Positions 18,601 to 37,559 are shown, counted from the first letter of the stretch. The stretch is DNA of 64,000 nt from Pseudomonadota bacterium (GCA_018814305.1 JAHJAA010000022.1:1-64000), one strand, 5' to 3'. Notes: generated by a model from the letters alone, not told the origin. Program-made: numbers and translations.

Positions 18601-19707
18601 TCAATTCTTCAAGGTATGACAATCCCCGCAACCATTATAACCAGCACCAGGCCATGCTTTGTAATTCCAACGCATACTATAATCAAAGGGACTACCGTGG
18701 GCACGATGACAGGAGACACAGGTGATTATTGCATCACCAGCCACTTGATAAACGGTCTGCACAACACCCGTAGCCAAGTTTGAGCTGGCAAGAGGAGTAG
18801 CTATATTATAATCGTTCACTCCTGTACCACCATAATCAGCAAATTCGCTGCCAGGGAGAGCCGCGGCAGCCGCCATGCTATAATCAACAGGGTGACGAAT
18901 CCAAGGGGAACTAAATCCTGCAGCACCGGCAATACCGGCAATATTTACATCAGCACTCCCATTATCATTATGAAAATCGCCATGACACCGGGCACAAAAA
19001 TGACTCATTGAAGTTGTATCAGGATCATTATCGGCGTTTCTTGCCACACCCTTGTACTGATTATGGTTAGAAGGAGATGCGGTAAGCTCTCGATCAGGAT
19101 CCTCAATACCGGCTATTCCCTCCAGAAATCGATACGCGTTTATAACTTGAATAGGAGAACCATCGGTGGGAACCGGCACATCTGAATGATGGGTTTGAGA
19201 CATTGATATGGTCTCATTAAGTATTGAAGAGTCACCATGACAACCGTTCTGCCCCGCACAGGTTAAAGGTCGAGAACCATCAAAATATTCAGTACCACCA
19301 GGAGCAGTCCTTCCTGCTTGTGAGGCAATACCGTTCACGTTATGTCCCATCAAATCTTTGCTCTCAACAGATACCCAATAAAAATTACCACCGGCCAGAA
19401 ATTCATTCGAAGGAGACTCTGTACCGATATCATTATAAACAGGGGCTGGTGCTGTCGTTTTCAAGACAAATGGAACACTCCCAGATGAGTTGTTTTGAGA
19501 ATCACTATGGCAACCATAACAACTATCCTTTAACAAACCACCCTGTGCAAACCCGGTAGCAGTAGCCATTGGATCACCTTTTTGGGAATTATGCATGGTG
19601 TGACAGTTGACGCAAAGCTGCTGAATGGCAGCCGATCGGGCAAACGCAAAATTTGTCGTAAATGCCGCAACAACAACTAAAGAAATGATTACGGATCGGT
19701 ACCACAT
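18601..19707 (-). CDS. OmcS-like hexaheme cytochrome A (candidate filament subunit)
   Basis: A 368-residue exported cytochrome with a signal peptide ending near NFAFARS and a GGGGGAG ribosome site. Heme motifs in order are CVNCHTMHNS, CYGCH, an unusual CAGQNGCH (five spacer residues), CARCHGDFHN, CVSCHRAHGS and a C-terminal CGDCH. A conserved RHP lies between the fourth and fifth. This order, with TMH, DFH, RHP and RAH supplying extra His ligands, matches what I recall of Geobacter sulfurreducens OmcS (CEGCHTMHNS, CANCHTDIHN, RHP, CLSCHRAHAS). OmcS is a hexaheme protein that polymerises into conductive filaments. Length is close to OmcS (about 430). A beta-propeller gene ends 10 bases upstream and is probably co-transcribed. 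Filament formation itself is inference. Confidence 0.85.
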   Translation of the reverse strand: MWYRSVIISLVVVAAFTTNFAFARSAAIQQLCVNCHTMHNSQKGDPMATATGFAQGGLLKDSCYGCHSDSQNNSSGSVPFVLKTTAPAPVYNDIGTESPSNEFLAGGNFYWVSVESKDLMGHNVNGIASQAGRTAPGGTEYFDGSRPLTCAGQNGCHGDSSILNETISMSQTHHSDVPVPTDGSPIQVINAYRFLEGIAGIEDPDRELTASPSNHNQYKGVARNADNDPDTTSMSHFCARCHGDFHNDNGSADVNIAGIAGAAGFSSPWIRHPVDYSMAAAAALPGSEFADYGGTGVNDYNIATPLASSNLATGVVQTVYQVAGDAIITCVSCHRAHGSPFDYSMRWNYKAWPGAGYNGCGDCHTLKN

Positions 19708-19717
19708 AATACTCCCC

Positions 19718-20605
19718 CTACCGGCTAAAAACCTCTACCCGACCGTTACCAGAATCCACCACACACAACCGTCCCCAGGGATCTAACAGGAGGTCCTTAG
19801 GATAATACAATCTGCCCAAGTTATGTCCCTTCGCTAAAAAATCATACTTTAAAACGCCTGATTGGTCGAAAACTGAAATATTGGCTTGGTGACTATCCAA
19901 AATATAAATCAGTCCTGATTTGTCTATTTCCAAGGCAACCGGAAAACTCAGTGGACCTTTTAATAAAATGGTTCTCTCAAGCTCCCGATTTTGATTAAAA
20001 CGGAGAACTTTTTTCCCAGGTTTGTCCAACGCCCAGATTGAATGATCCTTGATTACAAAATCAACAAAACCATTCTGACACTCTTTGCATTGAAAACTAC
20101 CGGAAAATTTTAAAGAGTGATCATACTCGAGAATATCTCCAGACACTTTATCGAGGATATAAAAATTATTACCATTCAGGGCTATTCTATCCGGAAATAT
20201 TTTTTTTCCATCTCGCTCCAAAGAATTGGTAACTATTTCCTTAGCCTTTAAATCAATTTTAGAAAATGAGTTCCTCCCCCGTTCAACAATCCAAAATATC
20301 CCCTCATCATCACGAACAAGATCATAAGGGACTAATAACTTATTGTATGGGTTAAAGGTGTTCAGGTATGTGCCATTTTTCTCAAATGAATGCAAACTGC
20401 TTCTAATTGGATCCGTCACATAATATCGTTCTTTTTCTTCATCAACATAAACAGCCGTCGGCATCATCATCTGATCCCCGACTTTTACCATTTTAAGGCT
20501 GAATAACCAAGTCCAAGGACTACCACCGGCATTGGCGATTGAACCGATTCCAAGTACATAAAAAAACAAAATCAAACATACTTTAAATTTATTTTTGGGA
20601 GTCAT
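19718..20605 (-). CDS. NHL-type beta-propeller protein upstream of OmcS-like A
   Basis: An exported protein of about 295 residues (TPKNKFKVCLILFFYVLGIG, signal ending near ANA). It has six NHL-like blades: MPTAVYVDEEKERYYVTDP, VPYDLVRDDEGIFWIVERG, FPDRIALNGNNFYILDK, DFVIKDHSIWALDKPGKKV, FPVALEIDKSGLIYILDSH and YPKDLLLDPWGRLCVVDSGN. There is a non-heme CKEC pair in blade four. NHL propellers are binding scaffolds. Its 10-base spacing to the hexaheme gene, and the matching arrangement at the second OmcS-like locus, suggest a role in folding, export or capping of that cytochrome. I preferred the internal ATG at 20605, because the 13 residues before it do not look like a signal. Confidence 0.8.
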   Translation of the reverse strand: MTPKNKFKVCLILFFYVLGIGSIANAGGSPWTWLFSLKMVKVGDQMMMPTAVYVDEEKERYYVTDPIRSSLHSFEKNGTYLNTFNPYNKLLVPYDLVRDDEGIFWIVERGRNSFSKIDLKAKEIVTNSLERDGKKIFPDRIALNGNNFYILDKVSGDILEYDHSLKFSGSFQCKECQNGFVDFVIKDHSIWALDKPGKKVLRFNQNRELERTILLKGPLSFPVALEIDKSGLIYILDSHQANISVFDQSGVLKYDFLAKGHNLGRLYYPKDLLLDPWGRLCVVDSGNGRVEVFSR

Positions 20606-20709
20606 AACCGTTCCCCAACATGATTTTATATCAAATGAATTCATGAAAATCCGAGCCGATGACGATATTCAAAACAGTCTATAACAAAATATTCTGTAAT
20701 CATTATTAG

Positions 20710-21882
20710 TTAGTATCCCATGTGACATTGGACACATAAATCCTTTTCACCACTCAACTTGAGATTGTATTTATAATCGGTTCCGTGGGGATAATGACAT
20801 GTCACACAACTCATCTGCAATCCGTTCCGAGGATCATAAATGCCCTCACCCACGGGGTGCGTAAAATCACCCTGGGTTTTATGACAAATGCTGCAGACTT
20901 GAATACCATCGCCTTTCAGCATTGCCATCTGACTCGACCCATGAACAGCATGGCAATCACCACAAGATTCTGTGGCCGGATGACTGTATAATTTGTCGAC
21001 ATACCCGGCAAAGGTATCATTGTGACAACTACGGCAGACCTGAGCCTGTTTGTTCCTGAAAAACTTAGGATCATCCGAGGCATGGGGGGAATGACAAACT
21101 ACGCAACTATTTATCACATTGCCAATCATATGATTCAAAGAACCATATAGCTCGGTCCTGACCTCATCATGACATTCGAAACATTTTTCCGTGCCAACTT
21201 CGGTATCACCATCATGGCAATTACTGCAATCCTCCTCATAGGGAGCATGAAGGAAATCACGGATCATTCCCTGCTTATTGCTACCGTGAGGGCTATGACA
21301 TGTAAGACAAGCCCTTAATTTCTTACCGGGATACCCCTTATGACTTCTGGATAGATCTTCAGCATGACATTTTTCACAAAGTTTTTCCGGAACCACAACT
21401 AAAAGTTGATATTGATCAGACTGATGTGGTTGATGACAAGCATTACAATGTCCTTTTGAGTATGGTTCATGTGGATATTCATATTTCTTTACAAGATCAA
21501 CATGACAATTGTAGCAACTCTCACCCTGATGTTTTTCACTGAGCAATCCCTTGGCAGAAGAAGCGTGGGGAGCATGACAGGCAAGACAGTTTCCTTCTCG
21601 AACCGGCTTATGTATCTTGGTTTGATCCTCTTGAGAAATCACCTTGTCATGACACATATTGCACAATTCGCTGGTTTGTTTCTGGAGTAAACCTTCAAAA
21701 CGAGCCACATGAGGATTATGACAGGATATACATTGGCCCTTCGCGACGGGGACATGAACTACTTTTCCCTGGAAAGCCGATTTTTCATGACATTGAAAAC
21801 AATCAACAACAGCCTTGGCATAAACGACCGAACTACTTACAAGAAAAAGAGAGATATAACAAATCAATCGGATCATCTTCAT
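20710..21882 (-). CDS. Hexadecaheme c-type cytochrome (16 CXXCH)
   Basis: A 390-residue exported multiheme protein (signal SLFLVSSSVVYAK) with sixteen CXXCH motifs, from CFQCH to the C-terminal CVQCHMGY. They come in pairs of the doubled-CXXCH type: one motif followed by PH or PHGS (CISCHNPHV, CLACHAPHAS, CNACHQPHQS, CLTCHSPHGS, CVVCHSPHAS, CGDCHAVHGS, CVTCHYPHGT) alternating with a plain motif. There is about one heme per 24 residues, so the chain is mostly a heme wire. Its ATG overlaps the stop of the 26-heme lipoprotein gene (ATGA), indicating translational coupling. It is predicted periplasmic, passing electrons to or from the outer-membrane components; the redox partner is unknown. Confidence 0.92.
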   Translation of the reverse strand: MKMIRLICYISLFLVSSSVVYAKAVVDCFQCHEKSAFQGKVVHVPVAKGQCISCHNPHVARFEGLLQKQTSELCNMCHDKVISQEDQTKIHKPVREGNCLACHAPHASSAKGLLSEKHQGESCYNCHVDLVKKYEYPHEPYSKGHCNACHQPHQSDQYQLLVVVPEKLCEKCHAEDLSRSHKGYPGKKLRACLTCHSPHGSNKQGMIRDFLHAPYEEDCSNCHDGDTEVGTEKCFECHDEVRTELYGSLNHMIGNVINSCVVCHSPHASDDPKFFRNKQAQVCRSCHNDTFAGYVDKLYSHPATESCGDCHAVHGSSQMAMLKGDGIQVCSICHKTQGDFTHPVGEGIYDPRNGLQMSCVTCHYPHGTDYKYNLKLSGEKDLCVQCHMGY

Positions 21883-23837
21883 TTTGCTCCCTCCCCGGTT
21901 TTATGACAGGGAGTACACTTCCCTTGCTTAAAAGGTTGGTGGGCAACCGGATACAACAATCCGTTGCTGATACCTCCATGGGGATCATGGCATTTCACAC
22001 AAGATTCTCCCGTTGGCGTAATAGAACCATGACTCAGCAAAAAACGCTCATCCTGAGTATGACACTCAGCGCAAATGGTACCTGGTTTATTTATAAGCAT
22101 CCCTTCAAAATTAGCTCCATGGGCGCCATGACAAATCAAGCAATCTTCTTGGGCTGGTGGATGCGGGACTCCGTCTTCCCAATCCTGGGCTATAACAGAA
22201 TGGCACGTCAAACAGAGAATCGGACCTTTTTTGATTAAAATTCCAGAGTAATCAGATCCATGCGATCTATGACAAGCATTACAATTAAATTTTTCAACCG
22301 GGGCATGTTGAATCTTATTCTTTTGAATCTCAACTTCCGTAGCCTTGTGGCAACCGAAACAAAGATTGCTGGGAGTATCTTTCAAAACATTTTGATTCTC
22401 ACTGGCATGGGTAGCATGACACAACACACATTTTCCTTTACCAAAAGGAGAATGTTCACCCTGACGAGGCCCAAGATTCATTATTTTGTTATGGCATACA
22501 GCACAGAGCTGACCTTGCTGTGTTCCTGCAATTAATAATCCCTTTTCTTCAGCCTGATGCGGACGATGACAACTACTGCATTTCCCCTCATTGAAAGGTC
22601 TGTGGACGCTGAATAAACCTTTTTCTTTAACAACTTCAATATGACAAGAACTACACACCTTATCCTCTTGCCCTTTGAGTAAAAGTTTCTCAGATGAGGC
22701 ATGCGAGGTATGGCATGCCAAGCAATTGCCTTCTTTGGCCGGAAGATGTTGATTCTTATCCCCACCACCGTAACTACCTTGTTCATGACATTCAAAACAC
22801 AAGATTTTAACATCCCGCTTCAGCAAAGCAGAACCAGATGATGTATGCCCTTGATGACAGTAAAGGCATTGCCCCTCAGAAACAGGTTTATGCCGGCTCT
22901 GTTCATTGTCCTGAGGTTTGGCAATCCCCTCATGACAAGCGGCGCAAACCTTTCCAGGAGATTCTTTCATCATCCCTACAAAATTACTGGCATGAACGGC
23001 ATGACAACTATCACATTGGTTCCCAGCAAAGGGATCATGTGTTTTTTTCCCAGCATTTTCTACCGGCGTAGCATGACACTTCACACATAAGCTATTGACC
23101 GGCCCAATAAGAGCTAAAGATCCATCATCTTTTTGTGTGTGGCACCCTGAACACTCACCACTCTGAATTGGTTTGTGAACAATTGTCTTCAGAACCCCTT
23201 TCGTCTCGCCGCTATGAGGATCATGACATGAAAGGCAATGTCCGGTGACGACAATGTCAAAGTGTGCGGTTTTTAAAGTCGCACCATCGACAGCATGGCA
23301 GGAAGAACAAAGTGCATCACCATCCGCGACAAGGCGACCGGAATAGTCTGAAGCATGGGGGTCATGACACTGGAAACAACCATTACGAAGTGGGGCATGA
23401 ATATTGGATCGTTTGAAGGGGGTTTCGTCATGACAGGTAAAACAAAGTGCAACACCATTGGCTTTTAACAATTTTCCATTAGGTCCATTATGTACTTCAT
23501 GACATGTTAAACATTTCCCTTTGCTCACAGGAGCATGAACGATAAGTTTGTTTAAAGAAACCAACTTATCCCTATGGCAGGAAAAACAAAGTTGAGGAGG
23601 ATCTTGTCGCAAAAACAACCCACCGATCATTCCATGTGGCTGATGGCAAGCCTTGCAATTTCCTTCAGCAACAGGGGCATGGACAACACCCTGACTATAA
23701 ATACCCCCTAATTCAGGATGACAATCCAAACAGCTCTTCCTTATTCGTTGAGAACCTGTATCCGAAGTTGAAGCGCATGCTGTCAGCAAAACCCCGGCAC
23801 CCATTGCAACGATTATAAACTTAAATAATTTATTCAT
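21879..23837 (-). CDS. 26-heme c-type cytochrome lipoprotein
   Basis: A 652-residue protein with a lipoprotein signal (KLFKFIIVAMGAGVLLTAC) and 26 CXXCH motifs, counted one by one from CLDCH to CTPCH. The repeating unit is about 50 residues: an HAPV-x-EG-x-C-x-x-CH-x-PH half and a CFSCH-type half, as in doubled-CXXCH (PF09699-like) proteins. Paired His in PH, VH and AH supply distal ligands. The lipid anchor suggests the outer membrane, on either face. Such a length could span many tens of angstroms. It is followed by the 16-heme gene with a four-base overlap and preceded by the foldase gene at 20 bases, so all three are in one operon. Orientation in the membrane is unknown. Confidence 0.93.
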   Translation of the reverse strand: MNKLFKFIIVAMGAGVLLTACASTSDTGSQRIRKSCLDCHPELGGIYSQGVVHAPVAEGNCKACHQPHGMIGGLFLRQDPPQLCFSCHRDKLVSLNKLIVHAPVSKGKCLTCHEVHNGPNGKLLKANGVALCFTCHDETPFKRSNIHAPLRNGCFQCHDPHASDYSGRLVADGDALCSSCHAVDGATLKTAHFDIVVTGHCLSCHDPHSGETKGVLKTIVHKPIQSGECSGCHTQKDDGSLALIGPVNSLCVKCHATPVENAGKKTHDPFAGNQCDSCHAVHASNFVGMMKESPGKVCAACHEGIAKPQDNEQSRHKPVSEGQCLYCHQGHTSSGSALLKRDVKILCFECHEQGSYGGGDKNQHLPAKEGNCLACHTSHASSEKLLLKGQEDKVCSSCHIEVVKEKGLFSVHRPFNEGKCSSCHRPHQAEEKGLLIAGTQQGQLCAVCHNKIMNLGPRQGEHSPFGKGKCVLCHATHASENQNVLKDTPSNLCFGCHKATEVEIQKNKIQHAPVEKFNCNACHRSHGSDYSGILIKKGPILCLTCHSVIAQDWEDGVPHPPAQEDCLICHGAHGANFEGMLINKPGTICAECHTQDERFLLSHGSITPTGESCVKCHDPHGGISNGLLYPVAHQPFKQGKCTPCHKTGEGAK

Positions 23838-23857
23838 GGCTAATCAGCTAATTATGA

Positions 23858-25486
23858 TTATGATTCTTTTAATTTGAGCCACATCTTCTCATTGACATGG
23901 ATCTGAGAACGAGAGCGTAATTCATCCAAATAATTTTGTTTTTGTTGCTCAAACATCTCATCTTTCAGGGTAGTTAATATCGTTGAACGGACCTTATCTA
24001 ACGAATCAACTTCTGAAGGAATCTCTTCTAACAATTTCACTATAGCACTCCCCCCCTCATAAGTGAAAGGATTACTAAATTCCCCTCGGGTCAGCTTATT
24101 TAAAACATTAAGTACCTCCGAAGAAATTTCCGTTTTTGCCTTGCTTAAGATATCGAATTCTTTATCATATTTTTTAACTGTTTCGTCAAAATCACTACCT
24201 AGCAGGAGTCCCGACCACATCTTTTGAATCAATTCCGGCTCATCCGCGATAAGAATATATCGCAACCTCTCCGGCTTACTGTAATCAGCCTTGTGTTCTT
24301 GGTAATAAGACTGAATTTCATTTTCATCGATTTTTATCTTATTTTTTATTCCCACCTCAACGGCCAAACGAAGCCGGTTGTCTTGGTAAAATGACCAGAT
24401 TCCTTTTAAAGGCTCTTCATTTTCATAATGTCGATCAATCGCGGCCTTATCAATGAGTGTTTGAGAAAGTATATTACCTCTAATTATCCCCTTAATATCT
24501 AAAGGGCTTAAAGAACCACCCCGGACTTTACTTTCCCGTTTAATATTTGAAATAAAATCTCGAACGGTAACATTCTGATGCACCATAGTTATGACAATTT
24601 TATCCAAATAATCATCACTATATTCCTTTTCAGAGTCAATTTCTTCATACAACTCCTCATCAATAACGACTTTGTAAATCTCTGAAAGTCGTTGCAACAG
24701 GTCCCTTGTCAATTGATCACGACGTTGTTTATAAATATTATTGAGTATCAATTCCTTTTTTTGTTCAAATTGCTCAAGGGGAGGCGTAGTAATCTCATTC
24801 AATCGGATCAGAATTTTGTGCCCATTTTCAACAACAGCAAAAGGCTTTGATATTTCTCCTACAGCCAGATTCCTTACCGTATCCTCCCATGTCGGGCGAT
24901 TTTTTCGGATAATTTCCGGGGTAACTTGTACTTCATCATAGGCAATAGGCCCCCCTTGCTCCGGAAGTATTCCCTGATAATCAGCAAAAATCAAACGACC
25001 GGCTGGGCCAATGCTTTTCAGGGAAAGATCGGCGTAGGCAGCTTCAGCCTTTTCTGAATTTTCAAAAGTAAGAATTTGCAAAAACCATATTGGCGAATAG
25101 TTCTGATCAAAATTCGCCTTAAGGTCTTCATCTGAAATATCTATTTTCGAATCAATCTCTTCACGTTTCAACGCCATCAATGAACGAACTTTTAAAAAAA
25201 CTTGTAACTTTCGGAGGTATTGCGGCTGTTTGTCATACTCCATGGCACGTCCCTGCTGTACCATTAGTTGGAAATTGAGGTAATCCTCAAGGGACTCAGG
25301 AAAAGGTGCATCTTTCCCATTATTCCAATAAGTCCACCAACTTTTAAAATCATCAGTTGTATAATCCTGACTGTTTATCGTAATCAAGGGCCCGGACGAC
25401 CACCAGGCAGCATTGGCAAAATCAGGCAGCCAGACTGTCGCCAGACAAGTTAATATAATAAATAGACTACATGCTACTCTTCGCAT
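23858..25486 (-). CDS. Parvulin/SurA-type periplasmic peptidyl-prolyl isomerase
   Basis: An exported protein of about 542 residues (signal RRVACSLFIILTCLATVWLP...ANA). It resembles SurA/PpiC-type foldases: an N-terminal SurA_N-like helical part (ITINSQDYTTDDFKSWWTYW), then parvulin-like stretches about 125-250 (SPIWFLQILTFENSEKAEAA, GGPIAYDEVQVTPEIIR, VGEISKPFAVVENGHKILIR). A second helical plus parvulin-like copy follows at about 340-530 (KADYSKPERLRYILIADEPE, LTRGEFSNPFTYEGGSAIVK). Active-site residues cannot be judged by eye. It lies between cytochrome and CsgG-like genes in a probable operon, and likely folds the large cytochromes or the barrel. I chose the second Met; the gene overlaps the upstream lipoprotein gene by 13 bases. 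Confidence 0.8.
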   Translation of the reverse strand: MRRVACSLFIILTCLATVWLPDFANAAWWSSGPLITINSQDYTTDDFKSWWTYWNNGKDAPFPESLEDYLNFQLMVQQGRAMEYDKQPQYLRKLQVFLKVRSLMALKREEIDSKIDISDEDLKANFDQNYSPIWFLQILTFENSEKAEAAYADLSLKSIGPAGRLIFADYQGILPEQGGPIAYDEVQVTPEIIRKNRPTWEDTVRNLAVGEISKPFAVVENGHKILIRLNEITTPPLEQFEQKKELILNNIYKQRRDQLTRDLLQRLSEIYKVVIDEELYEEIDSEKEYSDDYLDKIVITMVHQNVTVRDFISNIKRESKVRGGSLSPLDIKGIIRGNILSQTLIDKAAIDRHYENEEPLKGIWSFYQDNRLRLAVEVGIKNKIKIDENEIQSYYQEHKADYSKPERLRYILIADEPELIQKMWSGLLLGSDFDETVKKYDKEFDILSKAKTEISSEVLNVLNKLTRGEFSNPFTYEGGSAIVKLLEEIPSEVDSLDKVRSTILTTLKDEMFEQQKQNYLDELRSRSQIHVNEKMWLKLKES

Positions 25487-26079
25487 CTGATGAGCCCCTC
25501 CGTATACCACGTATCCAATATTTCATCTGAAATTCGTTTTGAGAGTTCAGTTACGGAACTCACCATACCAAGATGCATTACAGACCTATACTGTCCTCCT
25601 TCACGACGATGATAGGTCGACCAAATCGTCCGTCCGGAATCAGCCTCCAGAATCCTGATGATGACAGCCATAGACGGATCTAGGCTCTTACCCCTGTCAT
25701 CTTTTTCACGAAGCTCCATAATCGTTCCGTAAACAACAATCTGCACTCCAAGGCGATCAGCCAATGCGCGAATCTGCTCAATTGTTGGCATTTGACCAGG
25801 AATGACCTGCATCTGCTGTAATACTTTTCTGGTGTCACCCTCGTGAGCAACCAGATTCGTCCCTGCAACAATCAAGGCATTGGCAAATATTCGTGAAAAA
25901 AAGATTCCAGCGCCGGGATAATTTGTTTGATTGTCAAAAGGCAGAACCGCAACCCGACATATTTTCCCCTCATATGGAATTGGTGCCAACTTGACTAATA
26001 TTGGAGGTTCCTTAACAGAACAAGCGCCCTGGGCGAAAGCCAAAAAGACAAGCGCAAAAAACAAGGTTATTTTTTTCAT
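25474..26079 (-). CDS. Small CsgG/LpoB-like lipoprotein
   Basis: A protein of about 201 residues with a lipoprotein signal (KKITLFFALVFLAFAQGAC). The mature part starts with CRVAVLPFDNQTNYPGAGIF and continues with LADRLGVQIVVYGTIMELRE, IIRILEADSGRTIW and a C-terminal helix. This VAVLPF-N-T plus GxxVxGT arrangement is the hallmark fold of periplasmic CsgG/LpoB/GNA1162-type proteins. It is shorter than CsgG (about 260 mature residues) and lacks an obvious barrel-forming part. Its start could be a GTG at 26091. It overlaps the foldase gene. It is one of three such proteins in the island. Confidence 0.75.
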   Translation of the reverse strand: MKKITLFFALVFLAFAQGACSVKEPPILVKLAPIPYEGKICRVAVLPFDNQTNYPGAGIFFSRIFANALIVAGTNLVAHEGDTRKVLQQMQVIPGQMPTIEQIRALADRLGVQIVVYGTIMELREKDDRGKSLDPSMAVIIRILEADSGRTIWSTYHRREGGQYRSVMHLGMVSSVTELSKRISDEILDTWYTEGLIRCEE

Positions 26080-26342
26080 GAACCCGACCACCCAGCAAAC
26101 GAACCATCAATGGAGTATGAATAGAGCCTGAAAAACAACGTTGACAGCGGATCTTTTATCCAACATAACTTGGTCAGCCACAAACCATGAAAAGGTATAT
26201 CAGTGACAAGTGACACATTGATTACGTTCGCACGGAATAACCGAACCAATACGTTCTTGTGTCTGAAAATGGATACCACCTAAATTAATTAGAAACTATC
26301 CAGTAGCTATTTCTTCCCGGTAATAAGAGAGAAACAAGCTGA

Positions 26343-27932
26343 TCAAAATTCATCTATCCAGACCGGCGATTCCTTGGGAGGTTGTCGATCTAATTCTTGC
26401 TGGTTAGCTAACCCGTTTAAATCAACAATTTTTTCCCTGGAAAAATTTCCCAGGATATCACGCATCACGACAGTCACTTCAACCTTCCTGGTATCCTTGT
26501 CCTCAGGAAGTGCCACATCCATCATCAATGGTGCCGCTTCGGCAACCCGTACTACATTTCGTCCAGCGGCAGGAGGCACCAATTGCTCAGCGACTTTAAT
26601 GACCTTATTTGGAAGAGTCACATCCATTCGATAGGGGAGTTGATCTCCCTCGGCTACCTTAATCAATTCACCGGTTTCAGAGCGCATTTCCATCCGCCAG
26701 AAAGCGATAGGTACTTTTCCATCATGATCAAGGTCGACAATCATGTCTCGCCCTTGATTTTTTGCCTCAAGAACCATGGCTGGAGGGGTCCTGGCAACAG
26801 CTACAGGCTGGGTCGCCACCGCTAAATTATCGGAACGGTCCCAAACTTGCAAAGTTACCCGGTATATACCTTCAGCGGCAGGCCAACCATCTTTGCCCCG
26901 GCCATTCCAAACGAATCTTTTAGGTAATTGCCCATACCCGGTATAACTCATCTGCTCCTGCCCGGCCTCATCCTCAACCTTGAGTTTCCAACGAGCAACC
27001 GGCTCCCGCCTTAACATTCTTGGAATAATAATTACCTGGTCCCGAAAGGCCACTGTTCCTTCAAGTTGTACGCCTTTCAACTCCAGAACAAGTTTAGGCG
27101 GAGCACTATCAATGGTATAAGCACCCAGAAATGCGACTTTTTTATACCCAGACGGCCAATTTATAACGAGGGTGACCGGATAACGCCCATCACGGTCTGA
27201 TACCATCCAATCTGACTCATAACCAAAACCATCCTCGGATTGCCGAGCCATGTAGACCCGCCCCGAAACCTTAAAAAAGACCCTGGGCATATCTTCATCG
27301 GACCAGCGAGTCCTCAATCGGACATTACAATTAACCTGATCTCCCCTTCGGACATGAACAGGAGTCAAATCTACACTTTCTATTTCCAAGGCATGTTGTT
27401 GTTTTTCGACCGTTTCAAACTCAACCGGCCACGAAGTCATAACATTTTGCGCAAGTCGAGGCAGTAACCCTTCCGCTTCCTCCTTCTCACCAACCCCAAG
27501 TAAATTCACAATATCTTGCTGACTCAACCCGCCTGACCCGGTCCAGAGGGTCCGAGTATCCTCGGTTCTGACCAAATAAAGAGTCAATCCAAAGGAAGGT
27601 GATATCTTTTCCTGCCGCAAAGTCATGGTCCCGAAGAGGATCAAATCTACGCCAAGTTCTTCCCGAGCCAATATTATATGTCTGGTGTCCAAAAAGCCCA
27701 ACCACCGAACCCGGTTCCGAGCCATAAAAGACATAACCTCATCTTTAGCTACAACATCAAATCCCTTTTGATTCATATCCCAAGAGAGATATTCCGTCAT
27801 TTCAATATTGACGCCATTTTGACCTTGGCTTAAATCTTCAATCGGAAACACCGCCATGGTCATTGACCAAGCTGGAGCCGCGTGAAAAAAAACCCACGCT
27901 AGAAGTATCGGTAACAAATATTGACGCTGCAT
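26343..27932 (-). CDS. Exported protein with CsgG-like N-terminus and FlgD-like Ig domains
   Basis: A protein of about 529 residues with a cleavable signal (QRQYLLPILLAWVFFHAAPA) and a GGAGGT site 6 bases upstream. Residues about 20-170 are CsgG/LpoB-like: MTMAVFPIEDLSQGQNGVNI, ELGVDLILFGTMTLRQEK, LYLVRTEDTRTLWTG. Several Ig-like modules follow, one of which matches the FlgD Ig pattern (RFVWNGRGKDGWPAAEGIYR). There are no heme motifs. It lies between two small CsgG-like lipoprotein genes (about 260 bases after it and 90 before it). A structural or assembly role in the envelope is the simplest reading. Confidence 0.7.
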   Translation of the reverse strand: MQRQYLLPILLAWVFFHAAPAWSMTMAVFPIEDLSQGQNGVNIEMTEYLSWDMNQKGFDVVAKDEVMSFMARNRVRWLGFLDTRHIILAREELGVDLILFGTMTLRQEKISPSFGLTLYLVRTEDTRTLWTGSGGLSQQDIVNLLGVGEKEEAEGLLPRLAQNVMTSWPVEFETVEKQQHALEIESVDLTPVHVRRGDQVNCNVRLRTRWSDEDMPRVFFKVSGRVYMARQSEDGFGYESDWMVSDRDGRYPVTLVINWPSGYKKVAFLGAYTIDSAPPKLVLELKGVQLEGTVAFRDQVIIIPRMLRREPVARWKLKVEDEAGQEQMSYTGYGQLPKRFVWNGRGKDGWPAAEGIYRVTLQVWDRSDNLAVATQPVAVARTPPAMVLEAKNQGRDMIVDLDHDGKVPIAFWRMEMRSETGELIKVAEGDQLPYRMDVTLPNKVIKVAEQLVPPAAGRNVVRVAEAAPLMMDVALPEDKDTRKVEVTVVMRDILGNFSREKIVDLNGLANQQELDRQPPKESPVWIDEF

Positions 27933-28043
27933 ACGAATACCTCCAACCACCTTAGTGCAAAGCCACCTGCTAAAATCAATTTCAAAACAGATCGAGCGAA
28001 TTATCTCGAATCCTTAAACAATATATCTCTTTTCTATTATACA

Positions 28044-28968: not shown

Positions 28969-31062
28969 CTATCGGATTGAAAAACGTGCCGAAAGAGTAC
29001 TGTCAAACCGGAATTCATTCTCCGTCCCATCTCCAAGATTCAGATAAAGCATACCCAGCTTCAGGGATAAATTATTGTTAATACCCCACGCTAAACTCAT
29101 TTCACCTCGATGATCAATCTGGCTTTGCTCAAAATAATAGTATCGAAGGAACGTCTGGATGTTTCTGCCAACCGCCAGAGAAAATGCCGAGGTCATCGAC
29201 AAGCTATCATCAGAATCTTTTTGATAGGCATAAGAGGCCGTCCCATTCCAGGAAAAGGCCCGAGAAAGTTGCCAACTCATCGTCAAAGAGGAATTGAGCT
29301 GATCAATATTCTTTGCCTGGGTTTTCTGGCGATCATATGACTCATTCAGTGAGAGAACCAATGAAGGCTTCAACCTCGAGGTTATACCAAAGTCAGCGGT
29401 ATAATTTTCCGTATCATTCTTTGAAAGGAAGTCTTCTCGTTGAGCATATTTAAGTCCAAACTGTGATTGCAAATCCGGATACAGCTGGGCATTGCCATAA
29501 AAACTGTACAGATCGGTGGTCGAGATCAGCTCCCCAGCTGTAATATTATCAGATCGCGACCAACCGATGCTCCCAAACAGCGTCGGCAAAAAGGTCTGAC
29601 TTAGATTGAAACTGAGATTGTTATTTTCATAATCATCACGATCTATCTGATTAACCTGGCTCGATCCTGCGCTCAAAGATCCGCTTGTCCCCCAAACTGG
29701 ATTTTTATATTGCAGTTTTGATGAATGATACAGTGAGTTTGAATCGATTCCAGGATCAGATTGCTCCTCCGTCACCTGCAGATCATATCCGAGAGAGAAG
29801 TTTCTCAAAAATTCGAGATCAAATCCAAAGCTTGTTGCGCTAGATTTCTGTTCTGAATCTGTTGAAACTATAGTACCTGTAGTTTCCCGTTTGACCTGCA
29901 GAGCTACAACTTCACTGAAACTGATATCAGGAGCGTTTAACCTCAATTGGACCATGATTTTTAAATAATTATTCTGCAGGTTGCCAATCGGAATAATAAA
30001 TCGTTTATTTACACTATCATATTGAGCCGACAAAGAACCAAGGGTTTCCTCTCTCCATCCCGAGCCAAGAATATCGGTTGAAAAGAGACGCCAGAGCAAA
30101 CTTGAAGTGGAGCCTCGGAAGAGCTGATCAGTATATAAATAAATCATCCCCACTTCTTGACCACTGACCCGGATAATTATTGAATTATCACTGGTATTAG
30201 AATGAACCGTATAGGCAGGGGTCTCAAGAACGCCATCACGCATACTGTTATTATGAACCGGGTCATCAATCCCATCGGAGGGTGTTGTATCGGTTCCTGT
30301 TCGAACTTGTGAGATCAACTGGTCTAGATAAGCAACCCCATACATATCAGTCTTGGCTTCTCTGCTCCCCGCATCGCGTTTAAAATCCTGGGCAACATGG
30401 AATTTCAAACGCTTCCCCCAAAGGGAATGACCTGCTGAGATATTTGCTGATTGAGATACCTGGTTTCTTTCGAGTCCGGTGTCGACATTACCTTCCTTAT
30501 CTGCCCTTAAGGTATACACCAGATTGAAGGCCCGGAGGTTCCAATCTATAGTGGAAAATAAACTATGGGAAAGTGTATTGATTCTCTTCGGAGACAAATG
30601 ATCACTGGACTCGGATTGGGTCAAAGATGTCCGCAGATTTGGCCAATAGGCCTTCTGCCAAAGGCTGACCCCTTCAAGCTCATACGTGGTGCGTTCAGGG
30701 TACGAAGCCACCGACAAGTCACGGACCGTTGAAGCCTTCGCATCGAGAGAGAATATATAATTTTTAATTCTACCTTGAAGATCAGAAGACAACGTTTTGT
30801 TAACCTCTTGATGGGTTACCCATCGCTGTCCATAGCGGATAAATTCAACAGTTGAAAGAAATGGGGTAAACTCCTGGCCGGCACCAACAAAGGCAGCCTG
30901 ATTATACGACTGTATAACCTCACCACTAACCAGCTCATCCGTCTGCCAGGTAACGGAATATCCCATATTCGCCATTACCGGCCTCACCCGAAAAAACAAG
31001 GCCGTAATAACCAATAGAAGAATATATACCCAGCACCACTCCTTTGACAGAGCTTTGAGCAT
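28969..31062 (-). CDS. Predicted outer-membrane beta-barrel (porin-like)
   Basis: A protein of about 697 residues with a signal peptide (LLLVITALFFRVRPVMA) and a GGGGG site upstream of the internal ATG. After an N-terminal domain it consists of alternating amphipathic strands, for example FNLVYTLRADKEGN, FSLGYDLQVTEEQS, FGSIGWSRSDNI and FLRYYYFEQSQID, ending LSARFSIR. About 20-26 strands seem possible. There are no heme motifs. It is flanked by the 16-heme gene (31466) and CsgG-like genes on the same strand, the setting expected of the porin in a porin-cytochrome conduit. It may be the sheath around a cytochrome crossing the outer membrane. That role is inference; a plain outer-membrane or secretion barrel is an alternative. 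Confidence 0.75.
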   Translation of the reverse strand: MLKALSKEWCWVYILLLVITALFFRVRPVMANMGYSVTWQTDELVSGEVIQSYNQAAFVGAGQEFTPFLSTVEFIRYGQRWVTHQEVNKTLSSDLQGRIKNYIFSLDAKASTVRDLSVASYPERTTYELEGVSLWQKAYWPNLRTSLTQSESSDHLSPKRINTLSHSLFSTIDWNLRAFNLVYTLRADKEGNVDTGLERNQVSQSANISAGHSLWGKRLKFHVAQDFKRDAGSREAKTDMYGVAYLDQLISQVRTGTDTTPSDGIDDPVHNNSMRDGVLETPAYTVHSNTSDNSIIIRVSGQEVGMIYLYTDQLFRGSTSSLLWRLFSTDILGSGWREETLGSLSAQYDSVNKRFIIPIGNLQNNYLKIMVQLRLNAPDISFSEVVALQVKRETTGTIVSTDSEQKSSATSFGFDLEFLRNFSLGYDLQVTEEQSDPGIDSNSLYHSSKLQYKNPVWGTSGSLSAGSSQVNQIDRDDYENNNLSFNLSQTFLPTLFGSIGWSRSDNITAGELISTTDLYSFYGNAQLYPDLQSQFGLKYAQREDFLSKNDTENYTADFGITSRLKPSLVLSLNESYDRQKTQAKNIDQLNSSLTMSWQLSRAFSWNGTASYAYQKDSDDSLSMTSAFSLAVGRNIQTFLRYYYFEQSQIDHRGEMSLAWGINNNLSLKLGMLYLNLGDGTENEFRFDSTLSARFSIR

Positions 31063-31240
31063 AATCGGATTTCCCCCCACGTACTCCCTGCAGAAATCTC
31101 TACCACCCAAACCCAACACCAGATCACCAATAAAAACCTATACCCTACAGGAGATAGGATCACCATGTAAAACGAATCTTGAAACACCATGGTGAAAATT
31201 AACTACAGGCTACCTTGAATAATGGCCTTTTGGTCCGATC

Positions 31241-31411: not shown

Positions 31412-31455
31412 CAAAAAGCTGGGATATCCCCCTGAAATTAAAAGGATATCCCAGC
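31412..31455 (-). terminator. Terminator of the 16-heme gene at 31466
   Basis: GCTGGGATATCC and GGATATCCCAGC form a perfect 12-base stem with a 14-base loop. On the minus strand it is followed by five T. It is just past the stop at 31466, so the barrel gene is likely transcribed separately or by read-through. Confidence 0.8.
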
Positions 31456-31465
31456 AAAATAATTT

Positions 31466-33181
31466 TCAATGTGCTTTTATCTTCGGAACCTTGCGATCAT
31501 ATGTTTTGGGGGCATGACACCCTACCACACAGGTCCCACCGGTATCGGTTCTGGTAATATTAATAGGATAGGACCATGCCCCAAAAGGAACTTCATATCG
31601 GATGTGCTTATCCTGGTTACTGGCATGTGGATCATGACAGGCGGTACAGGTTCTCCCTTTTTCACTATTCACATGAAAGAAGTGAAGGTTATAACTCCCA
31701 TCTCTAAAATTGGTCAAAGTCTCTGTCGTCTTAGTCTTAGCGATATCTTTATTATGACACCCAAAACAGAGATCATACTTCTGAGGCCCGTATTCACTAT
31801 AAAATTCAGTCGGGTAATCCCTTACTAATAAGCGACTATAGGTTGAACCATGGGGATTATGACATTCTGTACACGATCCGGTCTGGACTGGACCATGGCG
31901 GTTCTTACTTTCCGAGATATAGTCGCCGAGATCGGTATGACAGGAAAGGCACATGGTCTCAAGGGAATCTTTCAACATTGAAGGATAACTGGAGGAGTGG
32001 ACCCGATGACAATCAACACATCGACCTTCGGCAACTGGTGGATGTTTTACGGTAGCATTATTGATGGTCGCATAAATTTCAGGGGTTGCATCCGCATGAC
32101 ACATGGCGCAAAGCGTACCATCATCTCCCTTCTTTATTAATTGGTACTTATTGGGTGAACTGTGTGGATCATGACACTGACTACAATCTTCCTGTACCGG
32201 GGCATGCAGGTACTCCATTTGAAACTCCACTTTTCGATCCTCGTGACACAGGAAGCAGAGTTCGCCCCCGGCTGGAGGGGCAATCAATAGAAAGTTATTC
32301 GGTGAAGAATGGGGACGATGGCAGGCGATACAGTCACCCTCCTCGACCGGAGCATGCTGATGATCTTTAGAAAACATCCCTTTTTCATGACAATTATAGC
32401 AGAGGGTGCTGACCCGGTCGCCGGTTCCATTCAGCTGATAACGCATATCCGATTCATGGGGATTATGGCATTCAGTACATCCTTCTTCGACCGGGGCATG
32501 AAGTACCTTCTGTGAAAATTCTTCTTTTCGAGCCTGATGACAAATAGTACATAATTCCTGTCCGCTTCTCTCCATAAAAGATGGCTCAAAGGAGCCATGG
32601 GGGCTGTGGCAGGAGATACAGACCCCGGCGCCAACCGGGCCATGGACATGTTTTGCCTTTCCTTTATCTTCATGACATTTTGTGGTGCAATTTGAGCGAG
32701 CCGGCACTAGTTTTTTAAAATCAAATTGCCCCTTGCGTAATCGATGACATTCATTACAAAGCAAGGCGGCTGGTTTGGTATGGACATAAAATCGTTTATA
32801 ATCCTGGGGAGGTGCTTTCTTTTTCCGATCTTTGGTATAAAATACATTTACTAGTGATTTATCGGAACCCGACTCAAGTCGAATGGTATTTAATCCCTCT
32901 TTCAAGGTAATCCCAACCCCAAAAACCCCACCATCGGTTACATTAATCTGCCCTTTTTTAGCATCAGCATCAACCCCACTGATGGCCACATTTTTCTGCC
33001 CGTTTGAGACGACGCCTGCCAGAAAAAGATCCCCCTCAATCACCCAAATCTGATCAGGGGGAGAGACGACCCTAATACCAGCATCAGCAGCAAAAGCCTG
33101 TCCAGCACTAGTCGCACTTAATATGAGTACAATGAAACCTAGAAAAGTCACAACCCCTTGTGAATATTTACTTCTGTCCAT
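31466..33181 (-). CDS. Hexadecaheme cytochrome with N-terminal Ig-like domain (14 CXXCH, 2 CX3CH)
   Basis: A 571-residue exported protein (signal ending near GQAFAADA). Residues about 35-115 form an Ig/Big-like sandwich (IRVVSPPDQIWVIEGDLF, then GVGITLKEGLNTIRLES). Sixteen heme motifs follow: CNECH, CTTKCH (three spacers), CISCH, CTICH, CTECH, CYNCH, CIACH, CFLCH, CSQCH, CAMCH, CVDCH, CLSCH, CTECH, CFGCH, CTACH and the last CVVGCH (three spacers). Most are in doubled pairs with HAPV-E linkers. The neighbouring barrel gene makes this a candidate conduit cytochrome. The 10-heme protein at 36336 has the same layout of an Ig domain then hemes, so the two are probably paralogous. Confidence 0.92.
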   Translation of the reverse strand: MDRSKYSQGVVTFLGFIVLILSATSAGQAFAADAGIRVVSPPDQIWVIEGDLFLAGVVSNGQKNVAISGVDADAKKGQINVTDGGVFGVGITLKEGLNTIRLESGSDKSLVNVFYTKDRKKKAPPQDYKRFYVHTKPAALLCNECHRLRKGQFDFKKLVPARSNCTTKCHEDKGKAKHVHGPVGAGVCISCHSPHGSFEPSFMERSGQELCTICHQARKEEFSQKVLHAPVEEGCTECHNPHESDMRYQLNGTGDRVSTLCYNCHEKGMFSKDHQHAPVEEGDCIACHRPHSSPNNFLLIAPPAGGELCFLCHEDRKVEFQMEYLHAPVQEDCSQCHDPHSSPNKYQLIKKGDDGTLCAMCHADATPEIYATINNATVKHPPVAEGRCVDCHRVHSSSYPSMLKDSLETMCLSCHTDLGDYISESKNRHGPVQTGSCTECHNPHGSTYSRLLVRDYPTEFYSEYGPQKYDLCFGCHNKDIAKTKTTETLTNFRDGSYNLHFFHVNSEKGRTCTACHDPHASNQDKHIRYEVPFGAWSYPINITRTDTGGTCVVGCHAPKTYDRKVPKIKAH

Positions 33182-33535: not shown

Positions 33536-33587
33536 ATAACTTACTACCTACAGCTCTTATCAAATCAGGTACTGAAGTCCCTGATAA

Positions 33588-34505
33588 TTACATCCCAGCA
33601 CCGTAGTCATGACAAGACTCACAACCGCCACTATTGGTTGCATCGCCAGCCTGAACCGCAGTATAATCAAAGGAAAGAAGCTTGTCATTAGCACTACCAT
33701 GGGCCACATGACAAGTAACACACATGATCATATCGGTGGCTGCGCCAGCAGTACCCAAGGGCAGCAGGTCAGTGTCGGCATTAGCGTTATAGTTAGCAAC
33801 ATATCCATACGGCTGAGTGGCGACATCCATCGTGGTCAATGAAACATCGGTAGGATGACGAGTCCAAGCATTCACGGCACCCTGGTTGCTGGCCCCATGA
33901 AAAAGACCATGACAAGAACCACACTTGGTATCAAGGGAGGCACTGTCATAAGCATTGGCTGAACGATTAAAACCAACTCCGTAGCAACCATCAGCAGTAC
34001 CGGTTACACCGGAAAGCAGACGATAGACAGTACCAGCACCACCGTGATGTCCGCCGGAAGCGTCATGGCAATTAGCACAACCGAAGGTACCACCAGCAAG
34101 AGCAGCGCCGCCTGGAGGAGTTACACCCAAGTTACCGTCAACGTTCATGCCAGTCAAATCACTGAAAGGATTATGCTGTTTTGCATCAACGGTGTTGTTC
34201 TTAACGAAATACCCACCTGAAAGCATACCCGTTGCTGAGTTGTCATCGACCTGAGGGGCTGAGAACGTTGCAAAAGCCTTCACACCAGTGGTGGTGTTAT
34301 TGCCGCCACCAGTTGCATGACACCCTTCACAAGTACTACCGGCCCGGAGCAGAGTAGCATTAGGTGCAGCACCAACACCGTTGGTACTGGCATGCATGGT
34401 ATGGCAGTTGACACACTGACCACTGACCACACCGGCATTCGCCATTGCAGGCATAAGAAAAGCACCAGCAATCAGACTTCCAAGGATAACCTTCTTGTTT
34501 AACAT
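33588..34505 (-). CDS. OmcS-like hexaheme cytochrome B (candidate filament subunit)
   Basis: A 305-residue exported cytochrome with signal LNKKVILGSLIAGAFLMPAM and a strong AAGGAGG site. Its six motifs are CVNCHTMHAS, CEGCH, CANCH, CGSCHGLFHG, CVTCHVAHGS and CESCHDYGAGM, with RHP between the fourth and fifth and GGHH after the third. Order, spacing style and distal His positions match hexaheme A and, from memory, OmcS of Geobacter sulfurreducens, though it is shorter. It is Ala, Gly and Asn rich, as expected of a compact abundant subunit. It is a single-gene transcript, with a near-consensus promoter about 110 bases upstream and a strong terminator, which points to high expression. A propeller gene lies directly upstream, as for A. 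Polymerisation is inferred. Confidence 0.87.
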   Translation of the reverse strand: MLNKKVILGSLIAGAFLMPAMANAGVVSGQCVNCHTMHASTNGVGAAPNATLLRAGSTCEGCHATGGGNNTTTGVKAFATFSAPQVDDNSATGMLSGGYFVKNNTVDAKQHNPFSDLTGMNVDGNLGVTPPGGAALAGGTFGCANCHDASGGHHGGAGTVYRLLSGVTGTADGCYGVGFNRSANAYDSASLDTKCGSCHGLFHGASNQGAVNAWTRHPTDVSLTTMDVATQPYGYVANYNANADTDLLPLGTAGAATDMIMCVTCHVAHGSANDKLLSFDYTAVQAGDATNSGGCESCHDYGAGM

Positions 34506-34616
34506 CTTCTTTCCTCCTTATTGTTGAATATCGTGCGCTACCCGAAGCGCATCCCCTTTAATCCAAAACAAAAGCTAAATACATATCCCCTTTACAATCC
34601 AGGATCTCACTGAACA

Positions 34617-34645
34617 ATTTATCACGCTAACAGTTCGTATGTCAA
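34617..34645 (-). promoter_or_regulatory. Strong sigma-70-type promoter of OmcS-like B
   Basis: On the minus strand TTGACA (34640-34645) and ATAAAT (34617-34622) are 17 bases apart. The leader of about 100 bases contains a small TGCGC/GCGCA hairpin and ends in AAGGAGG before the ATG. Confidence 0.75.
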
Positions 34646-34710
34646 GATGTTTTTTTGCAGACAGGTATCTTTCACCGTACTGCACCTCTTTAACTCAAAC
34701 CGCCAACAAA

Positions 34711-36318
34711 CTACCTCTTCTCATTGAAATACCAACTGCCAATGAGACCCACAGCGGCCACCGGCCCATAAACGCCCAAGGCTGCAGGAAGTCGCCCCTT
34801 GCTTCGTGGCTTGGAAACCACCGGAATATTTTCAAACAGTGCCACTTGCGCCTTAGGCGGCACCTGCGTCTGATGTTCAGAGGCGACAACAACCTCCACC
34901 CCACCAAGGCCCAACGGCAGGACAGGCACCTCAATCCCCACGGGAAGGGCAGCTTGGGCAGATGCCGGCAAGATGCTTGGCTGGGGAGCTTCAACAATAA
35001 CTTCCCCAAAAGATGCCGTATTGCCACCCGGAACGATCGCCGCAACGGCCTCAACGGAAGTCCCGGAAATCTGACCGGTAATAATCTCGGGAAGCGGTTG
35101 TCGAACCGACATATTGGTATTCATCACTTGGACCCTTCGATTGAAAAGATCCGAAACCAAAACCCGCCCCTCGTCATCAACCGCAATATCGTTGGGAAAG
35201 TTGAACCAAAGGGGAGTCACCCCCCGGCCCCCGAACTCGAAGATGTATTTGCCGGTATCATAATCATAGGCAAGGATGGTGTGTCGCATATAGTCACAGA
35301 CATACATAACCCGACGATCATAATCAACGGCCAGAGAGATGGGGTTTGACAATTTGCGGTCGGCACCGCCTTTTTCGCCAAAAAGAAAAAGGAACTCTTC
35401 CTTGGCATTGTAAACATAACAATGGCTGGTTTCACGACTCAATAAATAGATCCGCCCATTTTTATCGATTTTTACATCGGAAAGAGAGACAGGGAAAAGT
35501 TCCTCATCCGGCTCATCGGAGGAGCTATCACGCCCAGCCCCTCGGGCAGGCATGAGCCCGGACGGAAGGTCCAAGCCAAACCCCTCAGCGTCCTCCCCCT
35601 CAACCGCACCATTTCCGGAGGAATTCTCGCCATCAGGACCGGATACAGTTTTTTGGGCATTAACACCCATGGCTTCTCTATATTTTTGTTTGTACTCCTC
35701 AGTCCTGGTAACGGACCCCAGGGGCCGAATCCAACGACGGAGGGTCCCATCGTTTCCCAGGATCATTACCCCTGAGAGATCTTTATCGATGAGCCCCACC
35801 AGATAGATCTCACCAGCTGCATTCAAGGCAATCCGACGGGGCGTATATTTTTCAAGGCCGGGCATATCTTTAAACACAATCTCCCGCACCAGAAAAAAGG
35901 CAGGATTAAAAATACTGACCCGAGCCGGGCGGCCTTTACCTGCAGACTGACACACATAAAGATTTCCTTTGGCGTCAAGGGCCATTCCTTGTGGCTCCAA
36001 GATGCCACGCCCACTCCCCAACGAGGCAATTGGGAAAAACTTACGGTCATAAACCGTTATTCTGCCGATCGAGGAGACCAGATAGGTTTCTTTTGCCCCT
36101 GGATCATAAAAAACTCCGTGGGGGAAACCAATCTCCAACCCGCTATCATCTAATTTTAAAATGGTAACCAACCGGAGCGGTACGATTTCCTCTGCCTGGA
36201 CAATCGGCGGGGACATGAGCCAACATCCCAGTGAGGTCAATACCAGGAATAAAATCGAGGTACAAACTACCACCTTGAATTGGCGCAATATATTTAAGAT
36301 TGAAAGAGTTATGTTCAT
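34711..36318 (-). CDS. NHL-type beta-propeller upstream of OmcS-like B
   Basis: A 535-residue exported or membrane-anchored protein. The N-terminal hydrophobic stretch VVVCTSILFLVLTSLGCWLM could be a signal or lipobox (LGC). Propeller strands occur at about 60-190 (EPQGMALDAKGNLYVCQSA, TPRRIALNAAGEIYLVGL) and 290-400 (VSLSDVKIDKNGRIYLLSR, NPISLAVDYDRRVMYVCDYM, FPNDIAVDDEGRVLVSDLFN). They are split by an acidic, Ser/Gly-rich insert at about 215-285. A Pro/Ala/Val-rich tail ends with a short hydrophobic segment (VAAVGLIGSWYF) and NEKR. It is larger than the propeller beside OmcS-like A but in the same relative place. It probably helps fold, export or anchor the cytochrome. Confidence 0.8.
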   Translation of the reverse strand: MNITLSILNILRQFKVVVCTSILFLVLTSLGCWLMSPPIVQAEEIVPLRLVTILKLDDSGLEIGFPHGVFYDPGAKETYLVSSIGRITVYDRKFFPIASLGSGRGILEPQGMALDAKGNLYVCQSAGKGRPARVSIFNPAFFLVREIVFKDMPGLEKYTPRRIALNAAGEIYLVGLIDKDLSGVMILGNDGTLRRWIRPLGSVTRTEEYKQKYREAMGVNAQKTVSGPDGENSSGNGAVEGEDAEGFGLDLPSGLMPARGAGRDSSSDEPDEELFPVSLSDVKIDKNGRIYLLSRETSHCYVYNAKEEFLFLFGEKGGADRKLSNPISLAVDYDRRVMYVCDYMRHTILAYDYDTGKYIFEFGGRGVTPLWFNFPNDIAVDDEGRVLVSDLFNRRVQVMNTNMSVRQPLPEIITGQISGTSVEAVAAIVPGGNTASFGEVIVEAPQPSILPASAQAALPVGIEVPVLPLGLGGVEVVVASEHQTQVPPKAQVALFENIPVVSKPRSKGRLPAALGVYGPVAAVGLIGSWYFNEKR

Positions 36319-36335
36319 GGGCCTTGCCGAGTTAC

Positions 36336-37559
36336 TTACATTCCCAAGGCATTTTTCTTACTATCATGACACATGACACAAATTCTCCCACCCCGGATAT
36401 CAGCGATCAATAAATACCGATACGGTGAGCCGTGGGGATTATGGCAACTTGTGCAGGTAAATGCATACCCATCGCGCCGGGGATCTTTTCGACCGGCGAT
36501 TGGATGCTTTTGGACCGGATGACCGAGTTCAACACCCTGCAGCGCGGAATGACAACTGACACAGAGCTCGTTAATTTCGGAGACCAACTGAAATTTATAA
36601 TTGGTGGCATGGGGACTATGACAGGCAACACAACCTTGGGCGCTCAAAATCCCATGGACATTGAAACGTCTCTGGCCGGAGTCAAGATACTGTTTTTTAT
36701 CCACATGGCAGACGACACAGAGCTTTGCCTTGCCATCGGCGGCCAGCTGGTATTGATGCTGGCTCCCATGGGGGTCATGACAAATTGAACAGTCACCAGT
36801 CCCAACCGGCCCGTGGATATGAGCCATGGTCGTCCATTTACTTTGATTGACGTGGCACTGAAAGCAAAGCCCTTCAACCTTGCCGGAAGGAATCTGGACG
36901 GATTTTTCATCCTGGGGCGCCTGATGGCAGGTTCGGCAGAGCAATCCCGAAGCCGGAAAATGCTTCCACTCGGATTCAACCGCAATTCGACTATGACAGG
37001 AATAACACTCAGGTGAAAATTTCCCATAAAGAACCCGGTCAACCTTAGCGCCAGCAGGAAGTTCGTTGGAGTGGCATCCGCCGCAAACATCAGGAATAAC
37101 TCCATCTTTATGGAATTTGTAGATCCCCTCCTTGGTGAAATCCACGTTCAACAAAGAACTAAGTGGAGAAAATTTCACCTTCAGGGTTTGATTTCCGGGG
37201 GTAAGGGTGAAGGTATTCGTCCCTTTCGTTAACGGAAGTCGGTAATGGATGTAATACTCATTTGCTTTTTCATAACGACCGGACGGATCAAAATTACGAC
37301 CTGTCTTATCGTCCTTAAAATTCATTTGATTGATGTCGCCTTTGTCTTCGACCTTGACCACCACATTGAGAACCCGATTTCTGGATAACAACGTCGTTGA
37401 CGATTCCTGGGGGGCGATTATCGAAACATTACCGGCAAAGGCAGGCAAAGCCCTTGCCCCCCAAAAGCCCCCGGCTACAATCATTATAGCAAGAGCACGG
37501 GACACCTCACCGACAAGCCCTCTTTTCCCCGATAAGGCAACGCTGCCTCTTCCGTTCAT
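36336..37559 (-). CDS. Decaheme c-type cytochrome with N-terminal Ig-like domain
   Basis: A protein of about 407 residues with a long n-region before the signal core (ALAIMIVAGGFWGARALPAF). Residues about 45-145 form an Ig-like domain (NVSIIAPQESSTTLLSRN, then YYIHYRLPLTKGTNTFTL). Ten CXXCH motifs follow: CGGCH, CYSCH, CRTCH, CFQCH, CSICH, CVVCH, CVACH, CVSCH, CTSCH and CVMCH, alternating plain and DPHG/SPHA/NPHG types. The layout equals that of the 16-heme protein at 31466 with fewer repeats. It is 17 bases upstream of the propeller gene and so probably shares its transcript. It is predicted periplasmic or at the outer membrane. Confidence 0.9.
   Translation of the reverse strand: MNGRGSVALSGKRGLVGEVSRALAIMIVAGGFWGARALPAFAGNVSIIAPQESSTTLLSRNRVLNVVVKVEDKGDINQMNFKDDKTGRNFDPSGRYEKANEYYIHYRLPLTKGTNTFTLTPGNQTLKVKFSPLSSLLNVDFTKEGIYKFHKDGVIPDVCGGCHSNELPAGAKVDRVLYGKFSPECYSCHSRIAVESEWKHFPASGLLCRTCHQAPQDEKSVQIPSGKVEGLCFQCHVNQSKWTTMAHIHGPVGTGDCSICHDPHGSQHQYQLAADGKAKLCVVCHVDKKQYLDSGQRRFNVHGILSAQGCVACHSPHATNYKFQLVSEINELCVSCHSALQGVELGHPVQKHPIAGRKDPRRDGYAFTCTSCHNPHGSPYRYLLIADIRGGRICVMCHDSKKNALGM

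Follow-up and report, generated by a model that had tools for sequence, protein, structure and literature searches.

Genes for propeller proteins have repeatedly been noted beside genes for multiheme cytochromes, without a stated role. Which cytochrome, then, does such a propeller serve? The question is raised twice by the window analysed here, a stretch of 64,000 nucleotides from a Pseudomonadota bacterium (GCA_018814305.1, JAHJAA010000022.1:1-64000), in which two NHL-type propeller genes, NHLa and NHLb, each lie directly 5′ of a gene for a cytochrome resembling OmcS of Geobacter sulfurreducens. The original prediction read these genes as two parallel modules, and each propeller as the dedicated partner of a filament-type cytochrome. 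This interpretation is partly supported. We consider it probable that these genes make up a single Oet-type extracellular-electron-transfer cassette with a fixed conduit core, whose propellers would be accessory or assembly subunits and not filament-specific partners.

Both predicted sets of genes are present and collinear on the minus strand: 26-heme, 16-heme, NHLa and OmcS-like A in one, and 10-heme, NHLb and OmcS-like B in the other, with heme counts of 26, 16 and 10 confirmed as CxxCH motifs. In the second set, the 10-heme cytochrome gene (36336..37571; ten CxxCH, Pfam Paired_CXXCH_1) pairs with NHLb (34711..36318; 535 residues, with a signal peptide and a low-complexity C-terminal tail) across a gap of 17 bp. 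OmcS-like B (33588..34505) follows NHLb after 205 bp. This interval holds a minus-strand site at 34616..34645 that is promoter-like by consensus match only, with the hexamers TTGACA and TAAATT spaced by 18 bp and a TG before the second. OmcS-like A (18601..19707) lies just 10 bp beyond NHLa. Thus, each propeller gene is immediately upstream of its OmcS-like gene, as predicted, but the spacing is unequal.

The predicted parallelism did not survive inspection of the intervening genes, which link the two sets into a single contiguous minus-strand cassette with the sets at its ends. Next to OmcS-like B is a 14-heme cytochrome gene (31466..33181; 14 CxxCH and two CX3CH), perhaps an OmcX-like candidate, with a terminator-like hairpin at its 3′ side (31418..31455, minus strand; 16-bp stem and T run). 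It is followed by a putative outer-membrane beta-barrel (28969..31119), which had no match in a Pfam search and whose homologues occupy the same position in nearly all cassettes; from this position and the literature, we take it as the putative OetI. Three further products are kept in the cassette by synteny: a small lipoprotein (28044..28619; lipobox LMAGC), an exported protein, dfA (26343..27950; weak match to a FlgD-type Ig domain), and a small secreted protein, probably also a lipoprotein (25474..26091; AQGAC in its start region). A core operon of four contiguous genes then spans 19718-25510. It encodes a PpiC-type peptidyl-prolyl isomerase, or PPIase (23858..25510; Pfam Rotamase_2, 6e-20), the 26-heme cytochrome lipoprotein (21879..23837; lipobox LLTAC), the 16-heme cytochrome (20710..21882; signal peptide without lipobox) and the six-bladed propeller NHLa (19718..20644). 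Judging from the lipobox, the 26-heme protein is probably OetB and the 16-heme protein OetA.

A third propeller gene, of the YVTN/YncE type, lies directly 3′ of OmcS-like A (16727..18190, minus strand), and this position is kept in most relatives. Its product has a lipobox and a Pfam YNCE match (9.4e-6) just below the cut-off. Beyond it, at 12561-13733, is a five-CxxCH cytochrome gene with a weak match to a purple-acid-phosphatase N-terminal domain; members of this family are found 3′ of the YVTN propeller in many cassettes, and the product may correspond to Apc2a as described by Murali et al. The named relatives of the cassette are mostly Desulfobulbaceae, Desulfurivibrio and Desulfocapsa, which makes a Desulfobulbales-like host most likely.

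The cassette belongs to a known kind of gene cluster, published in 2017 and 2023. In its passages on the core operon, the earlier of these papers describes a propeller, 16-heme, 26-heme and PPIase operon in SEEP-SRB1 and relatives, and reports it from Desulfurivibrio, Desulfuromonadales, Geobacter and Desulfofervidus (Skennerton et al. 2017, PMC5539420). The SEEP-SRB1 core comprises the same four genes as the window, with no difference in the core itself; smaller cytochromes and further propeller genes lie around it. Those same passages make no mention of an OmcS-like gene after the propeller, of co-divergence or of CX5CH. The later paper describes an OetABI conduit with OmcS-like cytochromes, OmcX and Apc2a, in lineages including Desulfobulbia (Murali et al. 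2023, PMC10553843). The window shares with it the conduit and OmcS-like cytochromes in one cassette and adds the 10-heme/NHLb unit; the words NHL and beta-propeller are absent from the paper's main text. Similar gene content is found in the DFE_0448-0465 island of Desulfovibrio ferrophilus IS5, where two six-bladed propellers each lie beside multiheme cytochrome genes (PMC8322314, PMC9769857), and where, as in the window, there are also a 7-bladed propeller, a PPIase and large cytochromes. The IS5 propellers were detected by proteomics (PMC8322314), and its NHL proteins are annotated in these papers without partner analysis.

Both window propellers exceed the Pfam NHL cut-off of 20, with NHLa at 42.2 and NHLb at 47.1 bits. 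NHLa, whose true start is likely an internal ATG at about residue 14, is predicted by AlphaFold2 to fold as a six-bladed propeller of 24 strands (pLDDT 91), and the top Foldseek matches of this model are the NHL domains of Thin, Lin41 and TRIM3 (E 7.5e-16). Searching the window's own genome with Pfam NHL alone gave a single match, too insensitive for a survey, and profiles built for this work were used in its place. The NHLb-family profile found only NHLa and NHLb in that genome. There are three OmcS-like genes in the genome, and each of the two propeller genes lies directly 5′ of one of them, which argues that the adjacency is not due to chance. Judged by their sequences, the propellers are nevertheless two different families in every genome that carries both: phmmer scores between NHLa and NHLb are about 15-60 bits, against about 180-290 bits within either family.

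If each propeller were dedicated to a filament cytochrome, the two genes should be expected to travel together. The neighbourhood survey covered 117 contig segments from the window's order and phylum, with ORFs called and labelled using our own profiles. ORF calling was simple: a few of the small ORFs recorded as neighbours are spurious, and some exceptions, G026 and G030 among them, seem to stem from errors in calling or frame; a second survey set was picked partly by NHLa matches, which inflates its background NHL rates. Within the window's order the predicted co-occurrence held without exception, with an OmcS-like gene directly 3′ of NHLa in 36 of 36 cassettes, but in other orders this was so in only 16 of 35. 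In the rest, NHLa is followed by a 12-heme, 3-heme, NHLb or non-cytochrome gene, and 19 of the 71 core NHLa genes lack a hexaheme gene directly downstream. Of 64 loci with a 26-heme gene, 61 have the 26-heme, 16-heme and NHLa genes directly side by side; of the other three, one is cut by a contig end, one has a broken 16-heme frame and one shows an ORF-calling conflict. In 71 of 76 cases, the gene directly 5′ of NHLa is of the 16-heme type. The propeller is thus tied to the 26/16-heme core, and is kept when something other than a hexaheme gene comes next.

The evolutionary distances of NHLa point in the same direction. Across 35 cassettes carrying all the genes, distances of NHLa correlate most strongly with those of the 26-heme (r = 0.87) and 16-heme (0.86) proteins, followed by PPIase (0.76) and barrel (0.75), and least with the hexaheme (0.41). 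With the averaged PPIase, barrel and dfA signal removed as background, the residuals are +0.54 for the 26-heme, +0.53 for the 16-heme and -0.21 for the hexaheme protein (permutation p 0.0005, 0.0005 and 0.97). Trimming the columns, or restricting the analysis to the window's order, left the signs and the picture the same, while in ten cassettes of other orders, too few to reach significance, the NHLa-conduit residual was not significant. Correlations that involve the hexaheme are depressed by the greater noise in its distances, yet hexaheme and PPIase still correlate at r = 0.65. In its divergence, NHLa keeps step with the two conduit cytochromes, of 26 and 16 hemes, and not with the hexaheme. 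The low NHLa-hexaheme correlation would be explained by the behaviour of the hexahemes themselves: in a quick tree, copies from the slot after NHLa (slot A) and from the slot beside the barrel (slot B) pair within single genomes (G138, G044, G050), and the propellers stay distinct. This suggests copying or gene conversion of hexahemes between the slots, with the propellers staying put. The two slots also hold each other's closest hexaheme relatives in G079/G097, within a genome or family.

For NHLb, a dedicated filament partnership is a weak proposition, as this propeller mostly travels with the 10-heme gene. In 24 loci NHLb comes directly after the 10-heme gene, with a median of 16 bp between the two, and a hexaheme gene is directly downstream in just 8 of 42 loci, at gaps of 205-501 bp, or on either side in 15 of 42. 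In many relatives, the 10-heme/NHLb pair lies 3′ of the cassette or is encoded on the other strand, and hexaheme B stays by the barrel or 14-heme gene. The mirror analysis of divergence was uninformative here (r = 0.78 with hexaheme B, 0.72 with the 10-heme protein and 0.82 with the barrel).

We propose that electrons would pass between periplasm and cell surface via the putative barrel and the 26-heme and 16-heme proteins. These, together with PPIase and NHLa, would form the fixed core of the cassette. OmcS-like A fills a slot that closes the core operon and OmcS-like B another beside the barrel, and the 10-heme/NHLb pair would be a separate mobile unit. The OmcS-like, 10-heme and 14-heme proteins, if extracellular, may extend the electron path, in a manner close to the proposal of Murali et al. 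As a secreted protein whose gene lies with those of the conduit and has evolved alongside them, NHLa is most likely a conduit scaffold or assembly subunit that binds the 26/16-heme conduit or helps to assemble it, and its part is probably that of a rigid scaffold or dock. It may perhaps also offer a docking face for the cytochrome encoded by the next gene, and NHLb may play a like role for the 10-heme protein. Since its gene precedes that of OmcS-like A almost without a gap in this order, NHLa may also sit at a filament-conduit junction.

Other readings of the same genes need to be weighed against this one. The idea that each propeller is dedicated to the OmcS-type cytochrome beside it, whether to anchor, cap or chaperone it, draws on an adjacency of NHLa and hexaheme that is universal in the window's order, where tight coupling in every cassette, at a median gap of 8 bp, makes it probable that NHLa and OmcS-like A are co-expressed. 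This counts against our preferred explanation, as do the few lineages in which NHL-like genes lie directly 5′ of hexahemes outside the core. We nonetheless think dedicated partnership unlikely, given the core NHLa genes that lack a downstream hexaheme, the lack of NHLa-hexaheme co-divergence above background and the preference of NHLb for its 10-heme neighbour, apart from the hexaheme in most loci. Further, an NHL gene is missing from the neighbourhood of most standalone hexahemes, including the third OmcS-like gene of this genome (contig C7): with cassettes cut by contig ends set aside, an NHL gene is directly 5′ of about 4 of roughly 46. The lineages that do carry such pairs, G376:C72, G285:C40 and G230:C13 (L204/L219, L207, L221), have six-CxxCH hexahemes that form one clade, at loci outside or distant from the conduit core. 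They are the best place to seek a true propeller-hexaheme pair. An NHL-like gene also lies beside a hexaheme in G292.

Propellers often serve as interaction scaffolds, and NHLa sits between the conduit genes and a slot variably filled by a hexaheme, 7-heme, 12-heme or 3-heme gene. Both points speak for propellers as filament-conduit adaptors, which would touch both the 26/16-heme conduit and the extracellular cytochrome of the next slot, whatever its kind. Against this, NHLa shows no residual co-divergence with the slot cytochrome, and in several cassettes (G316, G151:C27, G147) the gene after NHLa does not encode a cytochrome at all. We regard this role as rather doubtful. That a propeller-hexaheme pair was copied to give both sets is very improbable. 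The gene orders are superficially alike, and slot A and slot B hold homologous hexahemes, which in some genomes are each other's closest relatives, but window A and window B lie in different parts of the hexaheme tree, and the distinct propeller families led us to reject duplication. For the conduit-subunit reading that we prefer, the linkage of NHLa to the 26- and 16-heme proteins shows which pull-down should have priority, and takes away the support-free, if tempting, pairing with a nanowire-type cytochrome.

Two side observations are, in our judgement, worth more than this main finding. The first concerns the hexahemes. Profile matches to OmcS are near full-length for both OmcS-like A (4.8e-26, over OmcS 8-347; 2.3e-6 with the single sequence) and OmcS-like B (1.5e-14, over 8-348), and the homology to OmcS (PDB 6EF8, 6NEF) extends to both families of putative filament cytochromes. 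Each had been predicted to be a hexaheme. OmcS-like B does carry six CxxCH motifs, but OmcS-like A carries five and one CX5CH, and the name is correct for it only if CX5CH binds heme. The motif, CAGQNGCH at residues 150-157, stands where OmcS has CSSCH. Of 170 homologues, 111 combine exactly five CxxCH with a single CX5CH (in most cases CAGxxGCHG), and 50 have at least six CxxCH, nearly all of these without CX5CH; the CX5CH and the sixth CxxCH are mutually exclusive in nearly all OmcS-like homologues (relatives in L062-L241). Window A belongs to the first of these groups and window B to the canonical six-motif group. Throughout the CX5CH group, both cysteines and the histidine are 100% conserved and align to the canonical heme-3 CxxCH column, seven further histidines are invariant or near-invariant, with the remaining ligand-type histidines retained.

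This is how a swap of a canonical for a non-canonical attachment site would look, and on balance we favour the view that OmcS-like A and its relatives bind their third heme through CX5CH (CAGxxGCHG). Alternatively, the two cysteines could form a structural disulfide. An AlphaFold2 model of OmcS-like A, computed without hemes, had a pLDDT of 53 and matched nothing in a structure search. A c-type heme motif with CX5CH spacing was not found in the literature searched, which covered few subscription papers, and we put CX5CH forward as a candidate unreported heme-attachment motif. If the site is real, counting CxxCH motifs only would undercount hemes in this OmcS-like group, and the cytochrome c maturation machinery would have one more motif to handle.

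The second side observation concerns the conduit. In four genomes of one family, the 26- and 16-heme proteins are joined without a spacer into a single 42-heme protein of 1010-1039 residues, at loci G062:C182 (L125), G097:C113 (L126), G079:C156 (L128) and G038:C4 (L130). In two of the four fusions, a site resembling a lipobox lies close to the start as called. Such a fusion is hard to square with 26- and 16-heme proteins that face each other across the outer membrane, and calls that arrangement into question. Lastly, genes for sigma-54-type response regulators lie just 5′ of the slot-B hexaheme in several relatives (L087, L093, L111, L128), and the annotation of GSU2506 near omcS points to a like regulator arrangement in Geobacter.
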